Assembly: GCA_004565275.1 (NCBI GenBank)
Contig: SDOX01000121.1
Location: forward strand, 525,800 to 589,799
Reading direction: 5' to 3'
Length of the DNA stretch: 64,000 bases
DNA from: Nannochloropsis salina CCMP1776
Taxonomy: Eukaryota; Sar; Eustigmatophyceae; Eustigmatales; Monodopsidaceae
Below the pieces are notes generated by a model. That model was given only the letters and a program-made list of their open reading frames with translations, searched no databases and was not told where the DNA came from. The position numbers were made by a program, and so were the translations under genes. Position 1 is the first letter of the stretch, and each line of letters opens with the position of its first letter. This document shows, in pieces, positions 24,055 through 64,000 of the stretch.

Positions 24055-27000
24055 TTACTTTCTTTTTCCAAGCAACATCTGCTTCAGTCCAGAGCCCCCC
24101 CCCCGCAGAGTCTCTCCCTTGGCCTGTTTAACCTGTTTATTGAAGTCCGCTGCTGACGCCTCCAGCCACGCCGTGTTGTCCTTGACTACCTGTCTCCGCA
24201 CCGTCTCTCTCTCTCTCTCCAGGCGCACTTTCTCTGCGTCCAGGAATGCCGCGTCCCTCCTCAGTTCCCGCATCACACCTTTCTTCTCACGCTTCACCTG
24301 CCGAGTGAGCTGCTTAATACGCGCGGCCTCCCGCTCCAGGCCCTCGTCCCTCCGCACTACGAAGTTGTCTATTATGCGCGGGGCTAGCGAGGGGATGGCC
24401 TCCACGTTTTTAATTCGCCAGATCAGGGGGGCCCTCGACCCCCGGGCTGCCGCCACCGCTCCTTCCAATCGCTGCGCGGTCTCTCGCACCACAGATGCTA
24501 GCAGACACTTGGCGGGGGCCTCCTTATCCTTCGGCACAGCGGCTTCCACAGCCGCGAGGCATTCCACCAAAGGCTTGAAGAGCTCGACTGCGGCAGTACT
24601 TCTGCTCAGGGGGCCCTCACAGACACGCTTAACCAGGTGGCAAGTCATGGAGAGGCACTGAACCGCTAATAACGGGGGGGCCACCTCCTGCTCTCCTCGG
24701 CCAGACTCGGTTCCGTCTAGGTCCTGCTCCTCATTCCCCCTCCGCCGCCCCCAACCACCCAGCACAGCAGGTCCTGCGGGGGTCTCGACGTCTTCTTGCA
24801 GTGCGGCCACCGTCTGTTTGTGGAGCATCTCCGCAAGAGAGGGGCCCAGGGTCGGTAGACAAAGCGCTGAGCTCTCGCCGGCAAGGGCCGCCAGGAGCGA
24901 CTGGAGGAAGGCGAAGAACTCCGGCATCAGACGCCCCGCCTCCTCCGTGTACTGCAGCGCCAGAGCCGCCACGAACAGCCCCCGCTCCACGTCGCACGGC
25001 CTGAGCAGGGGACACTGCGTCAGAGCCTGGCCCATGTAGAGCAAGGCTGGTGTGACCACTGGGTGCCGGAAGTCGGTGGCGCAGAAGACGCGAGGCAGGA
25101 GGCGTAGGAGCAGGAGAGCCCCGGGGGAGGGCCAGGGGCTGCGTGCCCTCTCGCCCAGCTCGTGGTCGCGCAGGCCCTTCCCCAGCCTCGCCTGCAACCC
25201 CGTAAGCATGCGGCCCCAGAGCCCAGCGGCGGCGCTTGGCATCTCCTCGGCCATCAGCGTCAGCGCCTCCGCGATGGCGTTTACCTCCACCTCCCCGGCG
25301 GCCGTCAGAGCGTCTCCCAGGCAGGCCAAGCGCCGCATTAGCACATCGTAGAAGGCGTGCACCCGCGCCCGGTTCCCGCCCGATCGGATCGCGTGGTATC
25401 GGCGGATGCGGGTGATCATCTCGGCCACGTCTTGGGGCCCGCGCGCGTGCTCCCTCACGAGGAGCGAAAAATCCTCCAGGCTCGAAGGGCACTCCAGCAC
25501 GTACGGCATGCGCGGATTCACCCCCTTGCCTTCCTCCTCTGCCTCCGCCACCGCCTTGGCCACGGCCACCCTCAAGCGTGCGTTTTTGTTCACAGGTCGG
25601 ACGTTTCCAACTGGAGGCGCCCCGCTCTCTTTGCCCTTCTGCCTCTCGGTCTCTCCCAACCTTTTTCCAGGTCCCGCCTCCCTTCGCCGTGCCTCAACGT
25701 CTTTCAACGCCGAGCCGCTCCCCGCACGCTCTTCCCCCTCACTACTATCGCTCTTCTCCTCGTGTGACTCGTCCTCACAAGATGACCGGGCAGACGTAGC
25801 TTCTTCGTCGCTCCAGCTGTCGGTGTCCCAGCCGGTTCCCAACCCCTTGAGGTCCTCCTCCCCCTCCTCCTTTTCCTCCTCCTCGCTCTCACCGCCCTCC
25901 CCCAACCTCGCCTCTGCGTCCTCACCACTGCTCCCTCCATTTTCCACTTCGCTGTCCACCTCTGCGTCCACTTCCCCCCGCATGCGCGCCCGGCGCGCGG
26001 CCTCCAGCCTCTCCAGCTTCTCCCTTTCCTCCCGGGCCTCCTCTTCCGGCGTCTTCGTGCGGTCCCTCGCCTTGGCTGCGAAGCTCTCGCCCCGTATGGC
26101 TGTTACCAGCTCGTCGTAGTCTTGGTCGTCTGCAAGGAGGAGCCCGGAGGCGGCCAAATCTCCTCCGCGCGACGTCTTCGCCTGCTCCTCCCTCTTGCTC
26201 TTGAACTTGTCCCTGAACTCCAGGTCACCCACCAGGTCCTTGAAGCTCTCGTCCAGCTGAGACAGCACCGACTCTTGAGCGTCCTTCAACTTCGCTTTTG
26301 CCGCCTTGTGCATCTTGGATTTGGCTATGATCTCCTCCATGAGCTCCGCCCGAGACTTTTTCGCCGCGGAGGGGCCGTAGTGACCTTCGTCTCCCGGCAG
26401 GGGCCGCTTGCGGTCTCCAATTCTCGTCCCACCGAAGTGCAGCTCCTTCACAATTTCTTTGTTCAATCCGCGCTTTTCGTCCTCATCGTCACTCGATGCC
26501 ACTCCGTCTTTATCTTGATAGTCGTCCTCTGCGGTCAATGCCTTTCCCTTGTGCGTTAGCGTCAGGCCCCCATAGTTGTCATCCTCATTTTCCTCTTCTT
26601 GCTCGAGATTAAAACGTCCAGCTCCCGACCGTCGGGCTCGTTTTTGACGCTCTTTCTGGAATCGTAGAAGCATCTTCTCTTCCAAAGACAAAGTCGGGTC
26701 ATCCTCTCCAAAGCGGCGGTCCTTGAAGACATTGTCCTTCTTCGAGGCACGGTACTCCACAAGGAGAGTCTTTTTTCGACGCTCCACAGCCATTTGCCGC
26801 GCTTTGCCAACATTTCGTACTTGACCTTTTGCGCGTTTGTTTAAGACTGTGAACTTTGCTTTGCGGTTTCCCACAGCATCGAACGGGTTTCCACTAGCAG
26901 TAGGGGACCTGGTGGTGGACCTACTTCCTGGGCCGAGAGGACCTAATCCTCTGAACTTGCCTCCTCCAGCCCATTTTCTCATCTTGCGGTCCCCATGGTC

Positions 27001-27057
27001 GGCCCCTGATTGTCTACCCAATGTTGACTCTGAGTAATTCTTTTTAGTCGCTCCCAT
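24055..27057 (-). CDS. NOP14: NOP14 nucleolar protein (SSU processome, 18S rRNA maturation)
   Basis: NOP14 is a component of the small-subunit processome with NOC4/EMG1, needed for 18S rRNA processing and 40S export. A single 1000-aa exon starts at ATG 27057. The N-terminus has the family pattern NPFDAVGNRKAKFTVLNKR then KARQMAVERRKKTLLVEY, a KDRRFGEDDPTLSLEEKMLLRFQKE block, and LTHKGKALT after an acidic patch. A central acidic stretch (E/D/S-rich, residues about 375-450) is typical. The C-terminal third is helical, closing with a Lys-rich segment (VRLERERETVRRQVVKDNTAWL...) and GLKQMLLGKRK. Length is normal for NOP14. It is divergent from the kinase gene across 356 bp. Confidence 0.93.
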   Translation of the reverse strand: MGATKKNYSESTLGRQSGADHGDRKMRKWAGGGKFRGLGPLGPGSRSTTRSPTASGNPFDAVGNRKAKFTVLNKRAKGQVRNVGKARQMAVERRKKTLLVEYRASKKDNVFKDRRFGEDDPTLSLEEKMLLRFQKERQKRARRSGAGRFNLEQEEENEDDNYGGLTLTHKGKALTAEDDYQDKDGVASSDDEDEKRGLNKEIVKELHFGGTRIGDRKRPLPGDEGHYGPSAAKKSRAELMEEIIAKSKMHKAAKAKLKDAQESVLSQLDESFKDLVGDLEFRDKFKSKREEQAKTSRGGDLAASGLLLADDQDYDELVTAIRGESFAAKARDRTKTPEEEAREEREKLERLEAARRARMRGEVDAEVDSEVENGGSSGEDAEARLGEGGESEEEEKEEGEEDLKGLGTGWDTDSWSDEEATSARSSCEDESHEEKSDSSEGEERAGSGSALKDVEARRREAGPGKRLGETERQKGKESGAPPVGNVRPVNKNARLRVAVAKAVAEAEEEGKGVNPRMPYVLECPSSLEDFSLLVREHARGPQDVAEMITRIRRYHAIRSGGNRARVHAFYDVLMRRLACLGDALTAAGEVEVNAIAEALTLMAEEMPSAAAGLWGRMLTGLQARLGKGLRDHELGERARSPWPSPGALLLLRLLPRVFCATDFRHPVVTPALLYMGQALTQCPLLRPCDVERGLFVAALALQYTEEAGRLMPEFFAFLQSLLAALAGESSALCLPTLGPSLAEMLHKQTVAALQEDVETPAGPAVLGGWGRRRGNEEQDLDGTESGRGEQEVAPPLLAVQCLSMTCHLVKRVCEGPLSRSTAAVELFKPLVECLAAVEAAVPKDKEAPAKCLLASVVRETAQRLEGAVAAARGSRAPLIWRIKNVEAIPSLAPRIIDNFVVRRDEGLEREAARIKQLTRQVKREKKGVMRELRRDAAFLDAEKVRLERERETVRRQVVKDNTAWLEASAADFNKQVKQAKGETLRGGGSGLKQMLLGKRK

Positions 27058-33165: not shown

Positions 33166-34697
33166 ATGTCCACGTCTACCTCCTCGTCTTCCTTTGCTCC
33201 GCCCAAGAAGCTCCGAATGGTTACGTATAACATCCTGACGCCAAGCTATTCGACGCCAAAGAGTTTACCGGTGTGTATTTTTCAATTTCTTTTCTTCTTA
33301 TCTTTACTTTGCCGTTTCGCGCTATGGCTAGAAATCAACGTCGGGGGAAGACCGGAATGCTGAATAAAGGTTGCCGTCGACCCCCCTCTGTGACTCTCAA
33401 TCTTGCTCCGTATACCGATCTCTTTTCAGGCTCACCCATCCATCTATCTAAATGAACAAGAGCGACTGGAAAAGATCCTGAAGAAGCTCGAACCAGAAAC
33501 TGCGCAAGGAGCAGTCATCGCGCTCCAAGAGGTGTCGAGGGCCTGGGCGGGCCATTTACATGTTTTTTTTTCGCGGGCTGGATACCACTTTGTGCACTCA
33601 GAGTACGGGCGGCCTTCGAGTGGTTTCATGGGCGTGGGATTGGCCTGGCCGCAAAGCACCCTGGAGGCAGTCAACATTGAAATATCTCGCCTTGCCGACG
33701 CCAAGCCCTGGCCTGCCGCACCGTCGCCCGGCCCCCTCTCCTCCTTCTCCCACCGGCTCTTTCGCCGGTTTCGAAAGATTTGGGGATTGCAGGCGGGTCG
33801 TGAGGAGGACGTGTTGGCCTCAGCGCGGGATCGGTCCAACGTGGTCATCGTTGCCAACCTCCGAAGCAAGCAAGCGTCGCCGCAGGACATGGACTTCTTC
33901 GTTGCGTGCTACCACATGCCATGCGAGTTTCGGCGACCATCAATCATGACAGTGCACGCCGCACTGCTGGTGCAGCGGATGCAGGCTCTGGCAGGGTCGA
34001 AACCCCACATCGTGGCGGTAAGTTCCATCGGCAGAGGAATATGGAGTGATAGGTCATGATCACCTGCCCCGACCCGCAGGGCCTCTGTTTCTCACGTCGC
34101 ATGTGAATGCTACAGGGTGACTTCAATTTCCAGCCTTCCTGGCCGCAGTATCAAATTATTACAGAGGGTGATATTGAAGCCGCCCATCCTCACTATCCCC
34201 CACTGCCTCCGAGTGACCCCTGGGTTCCGCATGTCGACCGACCTCTTCGCTCTGCCTTGAGGGTAAAGTGGGGCAAGGAGCCGGACTTTACCTGCTATTC
34301 TTATGCGGACAAGGTAGGGCGTGGAGATTGCGTGACGCCCCGGGAGCCTTGAGGGGCGGTGGCAATAAAATACCAAAAGCTCATTTTTTCTGGCACACAG
34401 GAGTCTGGCGAGCGGTTTTGCGCCCCGTTGGATTACATATTTGTTTCGCCGGAATGGAAGGTCGAGGACGCAATCAAGCTTCAGTCCAAGGACGAGGCGT
34501 TGAAGATGCCCTGCCCCTTTCCCAACCAGGTAAGTAAACAGAAGCAATTGTATCAACAGCAACAGACATTAAGAGCAGATCTTAAAATGAATCGCGAATT
34601 TATGAAAAGGAATAATGACACATTTCTCGTTGAATATCTCATACAGGACGAGCCGTCCGATCACGTGTTGCTATGGGCCGACTTGAGTCTCCCGTAG
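33166..34697 (+). CDS. Endonuclease/exonuclease/phosphatase-fold hydrolase (CCR4/nocturnin/2'-phosphodiesterase-like)
   Basis: Five exons (33166-33270, 33430-34017, 34116-34313, 34401-34529, 34647-34697), all phase 0 with GT-AG ends, give 356 aa. EEP catalytic landmarks are in order: LRMVTYNILTPSY near the start, IALQEVS (metal-binding Glu), GDFNFQPSWPQY (Asp/Asn) at the start of exon 3, PLDYIFVSPEW in exon 4 and the terminal SDHVLLWADL (His) encoded by a 17-codon last exon. Such enzymes cleave RNA tails, 2'-5' linkages or phosphoesters. The substrate is not deducible. An alternative upstream ATG at 33001 would add a hydrophobic leader. The one-to-one match of exon ends with conserved blocks makes the gene model reliable. 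Confidence 0.88.
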
Positions 34698-35402: not shown

Positions 35403-38400
35403 ATGGACCAAGATGCACGGAGTAATTCTCTTGAAGAAGATAGAAATGCACAATTAATGCTTTTAGCATGCGCTGGGGGGAAAGTGAAGGATGTGGAAGC
35501 TCTGCTTGCTGCTGGCTTTCCACCGCACTATCAGGAGGAGAAGGAAGGAACATCACTGCTGATGCACGCTGCCAAGGGCGCACATCTTGAAGTAGTGCAG
35601 GTGTTGCTTGCAGCTGGTGCACCATGGATGGCCGTAGATCGTCATAGCAAATGCGCAGGGGAGTACGCGATCGCCTGTGACATTGGGGATGCCAATCGCA
35701 AGCAAAGCGTTATCGACTCCATCCTCAATCACGCCGTCATGGCTGAGATGTTGCTGGGCACCGTGGAAGATCAGACTGCAAAGGCAAACGTTCTCGAACA
35801 GCAGAGAGAATCTCATGATTATTTGGGAGGTACCGTGCGCTATGAGAGAGGTCGCCTAGTCGACCAGGTCGACGAAGGTGTTATGATGGAATGGGAGGCG
35901 CCGCTAATGGAGGCGCACGCCAGTTTTCTTTGCGGGGATGATGGTAATCGCGATATTTTGAACGTGGGATTTGGACTTGGCATCATTGATCGGGCAATTC
36001 AGCGGCGAAAATGTCGGTCTCACACAATCATAGAGGCTCACCCTATGGTCTTGGAGAAGATGAAGACAGATGGTTGGTACCGGAAAGCAGGAGTAACGAT
36101 TGAAAGTGGACGATGGCAAAATGTGCTGCCGCGGCTCGTAGCTCAAGGAAAAAAGTTTGACGGTATATTTTTCGATACGTACGCCGAACATTACCGAGAT
36201 ATGCAGGGTTTCCATGCTTGGCTTCCAAAAGTTATGCGGCCTGGTGGCATCTACTCCTTTTTCAACGGTTAGCTGCTCGCATTCAAATTTTGTGCTTATT
36301 CATTTCGAATCAAGTGACCGCAAAACCTGCGCTTCTCCTTATAAATTTTGGCTGCGTGATTTAAAACTTCCTGAATTCACTTTTTCTTTTGGCTCTGTGC
36401 ACCCTTTTCACAGGCCTTTGCCCGGACAACCTTTTTTTTCATGCGGTTGCCTGTCAACTTGTCAAATTAGAGCTGGAAGCTTTGAAATTTTCTGTCGACT
36501 TCGTAAATGTCGAAATCGAAGGGGGGGCATCAGACGACAATTCATGGAAAGGGCTACGCCGACGGTATTGGCATGGCCGCGATGAGTACTTTCTGCCAGG
36601 TAAATGCTTGTTTCACTCTTATTTATTACATTCAGCCTTTTCCAGTTTTTGGGGGCCTCACCAAAATCGTTTTTCCTTTTTTTAATTCCCGGCATGCACA
36701 AGTGGCAGTTTTTGAAGTCGAAGATGAAAGAGCAGAAGGATCTCGTGATACGCTCGTGCATCCTGTTGACAGTATTCATGGGATTGATGGACTCGACAGT
36801 GGGAAAGCAGATGATACATTGATTGGTGAAGTCACTAGGGAGGACGGGACGAAAGAAGAGGTTTTACTCCATGCTTCTTTAGATCCGGAGGCAGGTGGAA
36901 TTACATGGCGACCCTACAAAGACATGGAAGGGCGCAATGATTCATTGTGTTTATTGAATCTTCGATGTTGGTTTCCTCCAATGCTGCACGATTTTCATCG
37001 ATACAATATCTTCAAACGTGCGATTTGGAAATCCATTGAAATAATCAAAGAGCGGGTTGATGAAGACAATGTGGAAATGAAGGAAAAGGGTGAAAAAGAC
37101 ATCAGAGTCCTAGATATCGGGACCGGTACTGGCTTATTGAGTCTGGAGGCTGTACGAGCTGGAGCGACTCAAGTGACAGCGTGTGATGGCTTCACAGCTC
37201 TAGCAAAAGTAGCTGAAGAAGTAGTTCGTTCTGCTGGCTTGGAGAAGAACATTTGTGTCGTCCATAAAATGAGCTCAGCGCTGGACGAAGAACAAATTGG
37301 AAGCATTGATCTTATTGTTGCTGAGATCCTGGATTCCACACTTTTAGGAGAGGGCTACTTAAGCACTCTTCGCGATCTTTATACCCGTGGCTTGGTCGAC
37401 GCAACCACACATGTTGTTCCACGTCGCGCTCGGGTGTGGGCGCAGTTGGTAGAATGTCCCGAGCTTCAGAGTCATTTTAAAATCCCATCAGCTGATGTGA
37501 CATGCATGGGGGACGGGAGACCCAAACCACTCCATCTTTCTTTACCTTATAAAGATGACGAGGCCAATAACTGGGCTGAAGACAAGACGCTTTCATCGAC
37601 AAAATTGTCGATACTTTCTCGAAAAAAGAGGGAGATTCTCGGAGAGAAAAGTGGAGGGCCAATAACCAGCAAGGCATTGTCAGCCCCTTTCATATTATTG
37701 GAAATTGATTTCGCCGCTGCGGCAGCGGAATCAAAAAGCTCAGTTGACTCGTCAAATGGGCCGATCATTGTGGGTCCAAACCTATCAGTCCCGATTTTGA
37801 GCGCAGGCAGTGTCCAAGGCGCATTAATGTGGTGGGAACTTATTTGTTCCGATGGTATTGAGACATACTCGAGCGCGCCTCGCGATATAGATATCGATCC
37901 TTTATGGCAAGATCACTGGAAGCCGTGCATCTGGCCTGTAACCCTGCCGTTTGATATTAATCCTTTGCAAGAAGTAAGCGTGCAGGGTGCTCATCATGAT
38001 CGGAGCATCTGGATAGAGATAGGATCCACTCCACATGAATCTCTCAAAAGATTGCGTGAAGGCCCTCATCCATGTCTTTGCGGACTCCATACCTTTTTGC
38101 CTACTGAACGGGTAATAGAATTAAATGATGCTCGCCGAGGGGAAGCATATAGTGAGTGTTTGCGGACCATAATTGATGCGAAAGATCTCGAGATCAAAAC
38201 AATCCTGGACATTTGTGATGGAGGAATGACACTCTTCAACATGATTCAAGGATGGAGAACTGCCAGCAAGTCAGCTCGATTGCACCATTTGAATTTGGTT
38301 AGCCTTGAAGAAGATGTTTGGCATGGTGCTGTGCTGGAAAAAAGCAGTTTGTTGCTCAAATCAGAATATCGGAATGCTTTACATGCCATTCATGAGATGC

Positions 38401-39182
38401 CGCAAATAAATATATGGCATGGTGCAGGGAGGGGCGAGAATTGGGACTCGGCCTGCTGGGGAGATGTTCAAGTCCTTTGTGGCGATGGATATTATTCGAA
38501 TATTGGAGTCAATCGTCCCATATGGAGTTGGCTAAATTTTTGGATCCTGCGAACGGCTTTAGCACCGATTCTTGCCCGTAATGTTGTGATTTTGCCGTTC
38601 CAAGTGCGACTCATGGCTTCGGTTATTGAATGCCCTTCACTCTTCCGGGTGTATGGAGGAGGAAATCCCATCGACGAGGAAAAGTTGGGTGGTTGGGATC
38701 ATACTGCATTTCGTCGTGCAATGAGTGAAGCAGCTTCCCGCGCAGTTTTCAACGAAGATAAAGATCTAGCGGTGTCTCTGGCAGATTATCCACACCGATT
38801 TCTGACACCACCAGCACTTCTTATGCGCATGGATCTGCATCACGCAATTGATTGGACAGCCTCTCAAGCACACGACGGAGCTTACCGCAGGAATGTGATA
38901 CATGTCCCATTTTGTAGGGCCGGTAATGCACATGCTCTAGCCCTATGGATCGATGTCGACCTCACCTACGGAGCTGCTGTAGGAAGTGAGCCCTCGTTAT
39001 CGTTATCTGGATGCTTACACCGTTATAGTAGACAATCGTTGAGGTGGATGAGTGGAGAACGTGTTGTTGAGGAGCGTACAGGGGAAAGGAATAAGTGTGT
39101 GAAAATTAAGGCAACGTTGGATGTTGTTAGTACACCAGGAATATGGACGGATTGTCAAATCACTGAAGTTGATGGAGACTAG
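35403..39182 (+). CDS. Fusion protein: ankyrin-RMT2 arginine methyltransferase joined to PRMT7-type methyltransferase
   Basis: Three exons (35403-36267, 36414-36599, 36703-39182), GT-AG and in phase, encode 1176 aa. Residues about 15-110 are ankyrin-like (ACAGGKVKDVEALLAAGF; AAKGAHLEVVQVLLAAGAP). Residues about 140-350 are RMT2: MEWEAPLMEAHA, motif I ILNVGFGLGIID, IIEAHPMVLEKMKTDGW, FDGIFFDTYAEHY, RPGGIYSFFNGLCPDN and the family C-terminus YWHGRDEYFLP, where exon 3 joins. Exon 3 continues with PRMT7: an N-terminal DPEAGGITW strand, VLDIGTGTGLLSLEA (about 488), the double-E loop AEILDSTLLGEG (about 557), VPRRARVWAQLVE and the second catalytically reduced methyltransferase half (from about 850). 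RMT2 makes delta-N-methylarginine on ribosomal protein uL11-type substrates in yeast; PRMT7 makes monomethylarginine. Exon 3 has no Met before the conserved PRMT7 start, supporting one polypeptide. The gene is less GC-rich than its neighbours. Confidence 0.88.
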
Positions 39183-39967: not shown

Positions 39968-40042
39968 GGGGAATTGGCTCAGTTATGGTAGAGCGCGTCC
40001 TTCGCAAGGACGAGGCCCGGGGTTCGATTCCCCGATTCTCCA
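39968..40042 (+). tRNA. tRNA-Ala (anticodon CGC)
   Basis: It folds as a full cloverleaf. Acceptor stem GGGGAAT pairs with ATTCTCC (one G-U). The anticodon stem CGTCC/GGACG encloses loop TTCGCAA with anticodon CGC, reading GCG. The T stem CGGGG/CCCCG encloses TTCGATT. The discriminator base is A (40042) and no CCA is encoded. No intron. Confidence 0.93.
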
Positions 40043-40217
40043 CACCTTTTGTGCTTACATACGAAAATCTTTCAAAAGAAAGACTACCAATTTTTTTTCT
40101 TTGATGCCCTCCTCAACAATTACGGGCACATTTGGCGAATTCCCAGCAAAAAGACATTACATGACAGGCATGTCGTCGTTACGCAATGTGGAAAAAATAT
40201 GGTAGCGTGGAACGCCG

Positions 40218-40290
40218 TGGAGAATGTCGGTATCGATCCGACTGCCTTCCGCACGCTAAGCGGATGCTCTACCATCTGAGCTAATTCCCC
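40218..40290 (-). tRNA. tRNA-Ala (anticodon AGC)
   Basis: Acceptor GGGGAAT/ATTCTCC is identical to the CGC isoacceptor. The anticodon stem TCCGC/GCGGA encloses TTAGCGT with anticodon AGC, read as IGC for GCU/GCC/GCA. The T arm GTCGG/CCGAC encloses the ATCGATA loop, which departs from the usual TTC start. The discriminator is A. It is convergent with the other tRNA-Ala, 175 bp apart. Confidence 0.92.
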
Positions 40291-41240: not shown

Positions 41241-41960
41241 GCTTTTCGTGGTTTGAGCGTTTCGCATATCAAGGGACTATGGACTGCGAAGAAATTGCGG
41301 CACATTCTTTTCTGCTCATGTGTACATTTCATTACTGTGTCAATTGTGTCCTTGTTTATCCTGTTTCTCTCTTTGTAGGATGCTCTCTCCAAGCGGTGTC
41401 GCTCTACGGCCCCTACATCCGACAGCATGGCGCTTATCAGCATGTCGTTGTTTTCATTGTGGGCGCAGACGAGTTCGAATCGTGCAGGCTGGCAGAAAAA
41501 ACAGAGTTACCTGTCTACGTCGTGCGTCCCTTGTCATAGACACCCATGCTTTGATATACGAAAAATAGCCCTTCCGGACGGGAGGAGAGAAGCGTCCGGC
41601 TCTACTCGTTGATGTCTATTTTTATTGACGGAAGGGCAGGAACATAGCACGGATAACGCCTAGACGCTTCGATTCCTCTATGGCACTGTTATGGGCGCGA
41701 CAAGCGTGTGCACGTTTTTTGCTGCGATTGGCGATATGTTGCTCTTGTTGTCGTTGCGAAAAGTGACCGCATTGTCAAGTGATACTGCCACCGTGATCTT
41801 CTTGATGGTCGCGTCGCCCACTATGTGGGCACTGTTCACATTTCTTGTGGCGCCGCGCTTGCCACGAGCTACCGTTGCTTCTTTTAGGGATATTCTCACT
41901 CTCACCACTCTTGGTTTTCATCATGACGCACAGGGCGCAAACCTTTCTCCCTTGTCAGCC
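41241..41960 (+). other. Upstream region of eL32, probable 5' UTR
   Basis: No separate gene is supported. The eL32 frame is open back to 41691 but that stretch is unlike the protein family. An acceptor-like CTTGTCAG directly before the ATG (ending at 41958) suggests a 5' UTR intron, common in ribosomal-protein genes. Confidence 0.4.
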
Positions 41961-42374
41961 ATGGCCAAAGTCACGCCCCTCGTCAAGCCCAAGAGCATCG
42001 TCAAGAAGCGGACCAAGAAGTTCGGGCGCTTCCAAGCCGACCGCTTTATGCGCATCGCACGCACATCGTGGCGCAAGCCTAAGGGTATCGATGGCCGGGC
42101 CCGCCGTCGGTTTAAGGGCTCCACGCTCATGCCCAACATCGGCTACGGCTCGGACGCCAAGACGAGAAACCTCCTCCCCAACGGCTTCTACAAGTTTGTT
42201 GTGAATAATCCGAAGGAGGTCGAGCTTTTGCTATTGCACAACCGAAAATACTCCGCCGAGATCGCACACAACGTAAGCAGCCGCAAGCGCAAGGCCATCG
42301 TAGAGAAGGCGGAGCAGCTTGGTGTCAAAGTAACGAATGCCGCTGCAAAACTTCGTGCTGAAGAAGACGCATGA
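41961..42374 (+). CDS. RPL32: 60S ribosomal protein eL32 (L32e)
   Basis: A structural protein of the large ribosomal subunit. The coding region is one exon of 137 aa starting at ATG 41961 ([21 protein letters not shown]). The conserved eL32 run is present: [22 protein letters not shown], then [23 protein letters not shown] with [54 protein letters not shown] and NAAAKLR. Length is normal. Upstream in-frame codons are ignored because they do not fit the family. Confidence 0.97.
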
Positions 42375-61503: not shown

Positions 61504-64000
61504 CTATCCTTTCAAGAGGTACTGGGCAGTCAGGAAGCCGTGGTCGGAGAGGTCGAACTCCTCAGGCCAGCGACCTTCCTCCATCTCCCGGGGCTCGATG
61601 AAAGCGTCCACGACCTGTGGGGGAGGGCAAGGTGTATGAGTCAAATCGCGCCCTTCGGCGTCCCGGGGGAGGAAAGAGGTGTCGCAGGCAGAGGGAGGGC
61701 CCACCTTCATAGTCCTGACGTTGTCCAAGGGCGTGCTCTTCCCGAAGAAGAGGTAGTCATCGTCCCGGCGGGGGTAGGGAGCAAATGGAGATGCCCCAGC
61801 CTCCAAGGTGGGGGATTCCTCGTCCTTGCGAGGGAGGTAAGGGACGAAGTTCCCGTCCTCCTTCTGGTAGAGATCCAGCTCCCAGAAGCGGTCCACAAAC
61901 TGGAGGGGGAGAGGGAGGGAGGGAGGGAGGAAGGGAGGGAGGGAGGGAGGGAAGCGACAAGCACGAGTCAGATAACCCGCGAGGGGCAGGAAGGGCCTGA
62001 GCCACCAGGTGAGTAAGAATGCCATGGGCCATGCAGGGAGGAAGGCACGGGCGCAAGAGGAGGGCGAGGCTTTCCTCCCTGTCCCACAGCAATACCTCCT
62101 TCGAGGGCGACCATTCAACGGCAGTGCCAGAGGAGGGGGGAGGGAAGGGAGGGAGGGAGGACGAAGGCGTAAGGGGAGTCGCGACGGGCGGTAGGAGCGT
62201 CCCCCTAGGCTCTTACGGCGTGCTCACAGCCGGCCCGCCTCCCTCTCCACATTCCCACCCGCCCTCCCTCTATACCTCCTTGAAATCGATCATCTGATTC
62301 GAGTCCTTGTCCGTGGTCGAGAAGAGAAACTCGATCTCTTCGTCTGGGGGAGGGAGGGGAAGGAACGGGGTCGGAGGGCGGGAGGGACAGATGGAGGGAG
62401 GGGGGAGGAATCGGTGAGACGGAGGAGCAGGCGCCTTACCGGTGAGCGCAGGCCGTCCCTCCCCAGTGAAGCCCAGGCTCTGTAAGGTTTTTTTGAACTC
62501 GGCGGGGTCGATGAACTTGTTGTCGTCCGAGTCAAAGACCTGGCGGCAGGGTAGAGGCGTGGGGAATGAAAGAGGAGGGAGAAGGGTGAAGCCCAGCGCC
62601 CATAGCCAAGACGCTGCCGCCGGGCACACTTCCAGGGTCGCGGCGCCCTGACCTCTCTTCGTTCCCCGCCCTCCCTCTCCCCCTCCCTCCCTCCCTCCCT
62701 CCCTCCCTCCCTCCCCCTACCTTGAAGGCCGCCCTGACTGCGGAGGGGAGCTCCCTCTGGATCTCGCTGAAGACGAGCTTGCGCCAGTCGGCCGCCAGGG
62801 GCAGGGATTGGTTCTGGGGCTGGAGGTGGAAAATGTAGTCCACACCCAAGTATTCCTTGCGGTGGGAGAAGTGGGAGATCCACTTCTGGACCTAAGGGGC
62901 AGGGAGGGAGAAAGGGAGGGAGGGAAGGAGAGAGGGAGAGACGGGTGGGTGAGAATGGGGCGTTCGTGGTTGTGAACTTGACAGTAGCAAAAGGAGTAAG
63001 AAAAACAGCAAAAAGGGAGGGAGGAGGGAAAGAGGGAGGGAAAGAGGGAGGGAAAGAGGGAGGGAAAGAGGGAGGGAAAGAGGGAGGAAAAGAGGGAGGA
63101 GAAGAGGGAGGAGAAGAGGGAGGAGAAGAGGGAGGAGAAGACGGAGGGAAAGAGGGAGGAAAAGAGGGAGGAAAAAGGGGAGGGAGAGAGGGAGGGAGAG
63201 AGGGAGGGGACCTTGTGCGGGGCCCGCGGGCGGTTGTAGGCCTCAAAGGCGGAGACGAAGCCCTTGTGACGGAGGTATTCGAAGACCTGCCCCTTGGGCG
63301 AGCCGTTTAAGTCCCCCGTGAAGATGATGGGGAGGGGGCCGAGATCCTCGTCTGAGGGGACCGGGAGGAGAGGAGGGAGGGAGGGAGGGAGGGAGGGAGG
63401 GAGGGGGGGAGGGAGGGAGGGAGGGAGGGCGATGAGCAGGGGAAAAACCGCGGACGGCGACAGAGCCCTGGCGCCTACCGTGCTTGTACTTGTCGATGAA
63501 GCCCAGGATCTTCTGCACCTCCCGGAGGCGGATGCGGCTTGAGTAGGCGTTGTGGGGGAAGAGGAGGTGCGTATTCACCACCAGCAGGTCGCACTGTTCC
63601 TGCTCCCCGCCCTCCCCTGCTTCCTCGTCCCTTACCCGCACCCGACAGAGGAGGCCCACCCGGTCACCGCAGTCCAAGAAGAAGATGGGTCGGTAGTCCA
63701 CCAGCTCCACGCGCGGGGAGACAAAGCAGGCGACGCCGTCTCCCCTCGCGTTCGTCCGCTCCACCTCCACCAGCTTGTACCCTTTCTCCTCGCAGAGACG
63801 AGAGGCGTACAGCCGCCGATAGGCAGAGCCCTGCATCCAAAACTCCTGCACGCAGAGCACGTCCGGTAGGAGTCTCTCGTCCTCCCCGTCCCTGCTGCCC
63901 AACAGCCTGTCTATGACGCGGCTGTGTCGGCGGAGGTATTGCTCTTCAAAGGCACTCTCACGGGTGCCGTTACTGTCGACGCGTTTAAAAATGGGGGCAA
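61504..64000 (-). CDS. EF-hand calcium-binding endonuclease/exonuclease/phosphatase-family protein, 5' end outside the window
   Basis: It has the plant At1g02270/At5g54130-type architecture: an EEP hydrolase domain followed by EF-hand(s) and a C-terminal domain. Exons run from the right edge (about 63479-64000, starting PIFKRVDSNGTRES and LCVQEFWMQGSAYRRLY with the metal-binding Glu). Then come about 63212-63354 (IIFTGDLNGSPKGQVFEYL), about 62721-62893 (GVDYIFHLQPQ), about 62439-62540 (an EF-hand, DSDDNKFIDPAEFKKTL) and about 62277-62346 (second EF-hand, TDKDSNQMIDFKE). A probable mini-exon near 62.1 kb precedes 61705-61899 (FVDRFWELDLYQKEDGNFVP) and 61504-61614, which ends in ...TAQYLLKG. 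The catalytic SDH near the C-terminus of other EEPs is replaced by HFSHRKEYLGVDYIFHL context before the EF-hands. Introns carry large (GGGA)n tracts. Substrate unknown. Confidence 0.85.
61905..61951 (+). repeat. (GGGA)n microsatellite
   Basis: An intronic tract next to the acceptor at 61900 of the EEP/EF-hand gene, with one AAGG interruption. Confidence 0.8.
62682..62717 (+). repeat. (CCCT)n microsatellite
   Basis: An intronic tract immediately after the donor GTAGGGGG of the EEP/EF-hand gene on the coding strand. Confidence 0.8.
63014..63210 (+). repeat. 12-bp purine minisatellite in an intron
   Basis: About 16 units of GGGAGGGAAAGA and its variant GGGAGGAGAAGA lie in tandem in the intron after the exon ending at about 63212. 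The units are sorted in blocks (A-rich, then GGAGAAGA, then A-rich again), as expected from slippage or unequal exchange. Confidence 0.9.
63373..63429 (+). repeat. (GGGA)n microsatellite
   Basis: An almost pure GGGA tract in an intron of the EEP/EF-hand gene. On the coding strand it forms the pyrimidine tract near an acceptor. Confidence 0.85.

Follow-up and report, generated by a model that had tools for sequence, protein, structure and literature searches.

The locus at positions 35403 to 39182 of a forward-strand window from a Nannochloropsis salina contig raises the question of whether two families of protein arginine methyltransferases, RMT2 and PRMT7, are encoded here by one gene. RMT2 and PRMT7 are normally separate proteins, and RMT2, which carries ankyrin repeats, is normally free-standing. 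This window comprises 64,000 nucleotides and corresponds to C14:525800-589799 of a 26.5 Mb assembly in 103 contigs (G+C of 0.556 over 200 kb of the assembly). We consider it likely that the locus is one nuclear three-exon gene coding for a fusion, in which ankyrin repeats and an RMT2-type enzyme (type IV, delta-N) are followed by an acidic linker, about 50 residues long, and a complete PRMT7-type enzyme (type III, omega-monomethyl).

Exon structure and domain order

Exon 1 (35403-36267, + strand as are all features of the gene) starts at ATG 35403, the first Met in its open stretch, and encodes the ankyrin repeats and the N-terminal part of a GAMT/RMT2-type methyltransferase. It is followed by intron 1 (36268-36413; 146 nt, GT-AG), whose retention would introduce in-frame stops, and by exon 2 (36414-36599), which encodes the remainder of the RMT2-type methyltransferase and ends ...RYWHGRDEYFLP plus one base. 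Intron 2 (36600-36702; 103 nt, GT-AG), with the donor CAG/GTAAAT and a T-rich tract 5' of its acceptor, leads into exon 3 (36703-39182), which carries the acidic linker and the PRMT7 part through to the stop. Joined, the three exons form a single frame of 1176 aa with 0 internal stops and a predicted product of about 131 kDa, in agreement with the original prediction of three GT-AG exons in one phase-consistent frame. The domain order is ankyrin repeats, GAMT/RMT2-type methyltransferase, acidic linker and PRMT7. In its size, G+C and short introns, the assembly is similar to the genome of Nannochloropsis oceanica, described as 28.7 Mb with 53.8% G+C, 1.7 introns per gene and a mean intron of 230 bp (PMC3499364).

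Donor 1 (ACG/GTTAGC) is weak and donor 2 is strong: the former scores above 91.4% of the 3263 GTs in the window with a generic matrix and above 63.6% with a trained matrix, the latter above 99.5% and 99.8%, respectively. The pyrimidine fraction 5' of the acceptor is 0.64 for 36702 and 0.60 for 36708, compared with 0.44 (sd 0.15) for all AGs in the window. Acceptor 36702 scores low under both sets of trained matrices (-0.4 and -7.7) and 36645 scores well (6.9 and 8.9); these matrices, trained on 264 kb with 85 candidate introns (4 under stricter limits), are noisy and were given little weight. Use of 36645 instead of 36702 would add 19 residues. With donor 36600, the frame is kept by all four AGs found within 36640-36720 (36645, 36702, 36708 and 36717), so the fusion is independent of which of them serves as the acceptor. 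AG 36635 breaks the frame with this donor, but the intron would then be 36 nt.

In the first half of the predicted protein, Pfam ankyrin stretches lie within aa 21-92 (Ank_5, 1.8e-06, 28.6 bits against a cut-off of 27), and exon 1 contains the methyltransferase motifs VMMEWEAP, ILNVGFGLG and FFDTYAEH. At an E-value of 0.01, all four PDB matches to this methyltransferase are GAMT (best 2.2e-11), its nearest solved relative. VMMEWE and FFDTY correspond to the acids with which GAMT holds the guanidine group, which we take to be Glu45 and Asp134. The ankyrin repeats, the GAMT-like methyltransferase and the conserved VMMEWE and FDTY acids are also what this half has in common with RMT2 (yeast Rmt2, type IV), whereas the chain here continues into PRMT7. 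The solved GAMT chains differ further: they are 198-236 aa long without ankyrin repeats, act on a small-molecule substrate and show no PRMT fusion. No match to a family model named RMT2 was obtained in Pfam for the whole half or in NCBIfam for exon 1, and the label RMT2-type is a provisional one that follows from the domain architecture known for the family.

According to the original prediction, YFLP at the end of exon 2 is the exact C-terminus of the RMT2 family, which is probably wrong. GAMT chains end ...RYYAFPQMITPLVTKG; in a local alignment, YFLP of the window falls on YAFP of GAMT and leaves 10 GAMT residues past the end of exon 2, while matching ITP instead, by eye, leaves 5. If GAMT chains do run about 5-10 residues past YFLP, the first residues of exon 3 may belong to the RMT2 domain, whose fold would then be completed by joining the PRMT7 exon; this argues for the fusion. 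Similarity to GAMT is low around the junction, and GKCLF, encoded by a retained intron 2, could fill the place of the GAMT C-terminus as well. An end-to-end alignment, in which the GAMT end falls 25 residues past, was set aside because the forced ends explain it. AlphaFold models made without an alignment were meaningless (mean pLDDT of 39.6 and 31.2).

The PRMT7 part (36861-39182) begins with the N-terminal strand VLLHASLDPEAGGITW (36861-36908). Alignment to 4c4a places three further stretches that we take to be motif I (VLDIGTGTGLLS, 37107-37142), the double-E loop (EILDSTLLGE, within 37317-37361) and the DHW loop (WQDHW, within 37905-37928). A second methyltransferase module follows in tandem before the stop (query 362-760 on 4c4a 268-626, 4.8e-09), completing the likeness to PRMT7. 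As for solved structures, the top matches are 4c4a (4.7e-30), 3wst (2.1e-22) and 4m36 (8.8e-16), the PRMT7 enzymes of mouse (4c4a/6ogn), worm (3wst/3x0d) and trypanosome (4m36). These are followed by the unnamed putative enzyme 5eku (1.4e-15), PRMT9 (1.8e-10) and, more weakly, PRMT6, 8, 3 and 1. The difference from PRMT7 lies at the N-terminus. The start of 4c4a, MKVFCGRANPTTGSLEW, aligns with VLLHASLDPEAGGITW, where Met is absent and a coding linker precedes instead; 4c4a starts with its Met at the strand and the worm chain has 8 residues ahead of it, whereas here 403 residues of RMT2 and linker come first. Judged by these motifs, both catalytic halves look intact.

Coding signal across the junction

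The linker (36703-36860) comprises 53 residues (VAVFEVEDE...EE), is acidic and contains no Met. Its coding potential was measured with a codon-position model that learned from exon 1 and the core of PRMT7 and saw neither 36703-36878 nor exon 2 nor intron 2; this gene-trained model has its composition in common with the stretches tested. The held-out 36703-36878 is coding in frame 0, the frame of PRMT7: it scores 23.6 bits, whereas the nulls average 2.2 (sd 5.6) and 0 of 1000 reach that score. The chance that a given frame of the same composition stays open across the linker is 3.6% (5000 simulations). With the same model, exon 2 scores 6.6 bits in the RMT2 frame, the top of the six frames, and none of the six gives intron 2 a positive score (-5.7 in frame 0), a periodicity that marks it as non-coding. 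When the change points were left free, RMT2 coding ended at about 36586 and PRMT7 coding began at about 36690-36691, both near the proposed splice sites (donor 36600, acceptor 36703). Against the fusion, the coding score by itself puts the out-of-frame pair 36586/36703 (34.7) one bit over the in-frame pair 36600/36703 (33.7).

Also against it, a genome-trained model built from 63 long ORFs finds the linker unremarkable (-2.8 per 100 nt in frame 0 and -1.9 in frame 1), and the frames are told apart solely by the model trained on the AT-rich gene itself. The genome-trained model probably gives no contrast because the gene is AT-rich: the third-position G+C is 0.49 in exon 1 and 0.40 in the PRMT7 part, compared with a 5th percentile of 0.51 for the 63 long ORFs of the same contig, which are not confirmed genes.

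Retention of intron 2 would carry the RMT2 frame through 28 more residues to a stop at 36683-36685, ending RMT2 early with its domain nearly complete. If intron 2 were alternatively spliced or contained an alternative polyadenylation site, RMT2 alone could in this way be made next to the fusion, a situation compatible with the fusion itself, and alternative splicing is among the phenomena reported for Nannochloropsis oceanica (PMC12702839). The strong donor would nevertheless favor constitutive use of the intron, and we regard the production of both forms as unlikely, though by no means far-fetched.

The same 28-residue extension also fits two separate or overlapping genes, with RMT2 ending in the retained intron and a PRMT7 transcript starting in RMT2 exon 2 or in an unspliced intron 2 and using ATG 36507, 36573 or 36582. 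The PRMT7 frame is open on its 5' side, unspliced, through intron 2 to these three ATGs, so that frame 0 runs uninterrupted from ATG 36507 to 39182. The original prediction had found no Met in the PRMT7 exon between the acceptor and DPEAGGITW, which the translation of exon 3 bears out, and had concluded that PRMT7 has no obvious start of its own; this conclusion stands for exon 3 ahead of the strand but had left the upstream unspliced ATGs unmentioned. The coding signal speaks against two genes: 36507-36599 scores 8.3 bits in the RMT2 frame but only 2.5 bits in frame 0, intron 2 is at -5.7 in frame 0, and the PRMT7 signal begins only around 36690. Two genes would also have scant space for a 3' UTR, a promoter and a 5' UTR. 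We consider this arrangement improbable.

Still less probable is a PRMT7 that begins at Met 36924 (PYKDMEGRND), without the N-terminal strand and with the linker as a 5' UTR. No in-frame ATG of exon 3 comes before this codon, and the methyltransferase core lies 3' of it, but the N-terminal strand of the family sits upstream of it and the linker shows a codon periodicity that none of the 1000 nulls attained. An assembly artefact joining two genes is barely credible, with no supporting sign found in the assembly sequence at the locus, a position well inside a 620,624-base contig, a low G+C common to the coding parts (0.465-0.506) and a frame that agrees across a short intron.

Taken together, the single frame, the domain matches and the coding linker make one polypeptide with both enzyme families and the ankyrin repeats the best reading of the locus, as had been proposed. 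In such a gene, intron 2 would be spliced.

Copies, relatives and neighbors

For either half, the assembly gave a single full-strength match: one full-length PRMT7 and one RMT2 exon pair. Four other PRMT7 matches in the genome are weak (1.4e-11 to 1.4e-4) and, by reading of their frames, appear to be PRMT9-, PRMT4-, PRMT1- and PRMT3-like (L002 at C15:641346, L003, L004 and L005). A separate PRMT5 gene is present at C14:426172 (2.4e-67), and one weak RMT2 match is found elsewhere (C86, E-value of 0.006). Relatives of the two halves were also sought in viral contigs, with 1 and 0 pattern matches and none confirmed, and relatives of the RMT2 methyltransferase in a collection of non-eukaryotic genome contigs, with 12 pattern matches and none confirmed.

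Among stramenopiles, two diatoms and one brown alga (organism names partly by our own reading) have PRMT7 entries in a published list, with no row for RMT2 in that part of it (PMC3145265). One description has RMT2 occurring in fungi and plants (PMC3365026), and another gives type IV as fungus-specific (PMC10414604). Fused amino-acid biosynthesis genes appear among the titles of supplementary items for Nannochloropsis oceanica (PMC3499364). Our literature search, which misses most subscription journals, found no description of an RMT2-PRMT7 fusion; this is weak evidence and agrees with the earlier suggestion that the fusion is undescribed.

Just 3' of the gene lie two convergent tRNA-Ala genes (CGC and AGC; 39968-40043, +, and 40217-40290, -), 173 bases apart. 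The window also contains genes for the ribosomal protein L32e (41691-42371, +; 5e-45) and for Nop14 (24058-27057, -; 7.6e-174), both ribosome-related, and their proximity is possibly due to chance. Open frames at 33394-34697 and 63243-63998 read like endonuclease/exonuclease/phosphatase-type enzymes; no Pfam match at 0.001 was obtained for 33397-34056. Elsewhere in the assembly, contig C103 carries a plastid-type rpl11-rpl1-rpl12 cluster (L029, names by our own reading), and the assembly thus appears to include the plastid.

Predicted products and substrates

Yeast Rmt2 is reported to methylate Arg67 of Rpl12, forming delta-N-methylarginine (PMC3365026, PMC3020972). TbPRMT7 is described as a type III enzyme producing omega-monomethylarginine only (PMC3154905), and PRMT7 is classed as type II in PMC3365026. 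Both active sites of the fusion would be functional, each with the product usual for its family. For the RMT2 half this product is not certain, since a Penicillium relative of RMT2 (34.83% identical) is reported to form omega-mono- and asymmetric dimethylarginine in vitro (PMC10414604).

At the least, the fusion would fix the co-expression and co-localization of the two activities, with PRMT7 carried along, and the ankyrin repeats would act as a docking arm. A cytosolic-looking uL11 encoded in the same genome (L030) keeps the context IQNRQ, which we take to be the Rpl12 Arg67 site. The RMT2 half may therefore well methylate uL11 (Rpl12), which would be its likely substrate; the conserved context bears on the RMT2 half only.

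A bolder reading, along the lines of the coupling suggested in the original prediction, is joint action on ribosomal clients: one polypeptide would make both delta-N- and omega-N-monomethylarginine, and the ankyrin arm would bring shared clients, perhaps ribosomal ones, to both active sites, where they would receive type III and type IV marks together. Because the fungal RMT2 relative is reported to make omega products, we regard this joint reading as rather doubtful.

Little is known about what type IV (delta) arginine methylation does physiologically, and the substrates of PRMT7 are debated. The finding would extend RMT2-type enzymes beyond the fungi and plants named in PMC10414604 and PMC3365026, to a genome that has a plastid-type contig. 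If the fusion is true, a single promoter would govern two different arginine marks, with both enzymes in a single protein, and the removal of this one gene would erase both activities. The presence of type IV and type III enzymes in one natural fusion would be a hint that both act in one process.
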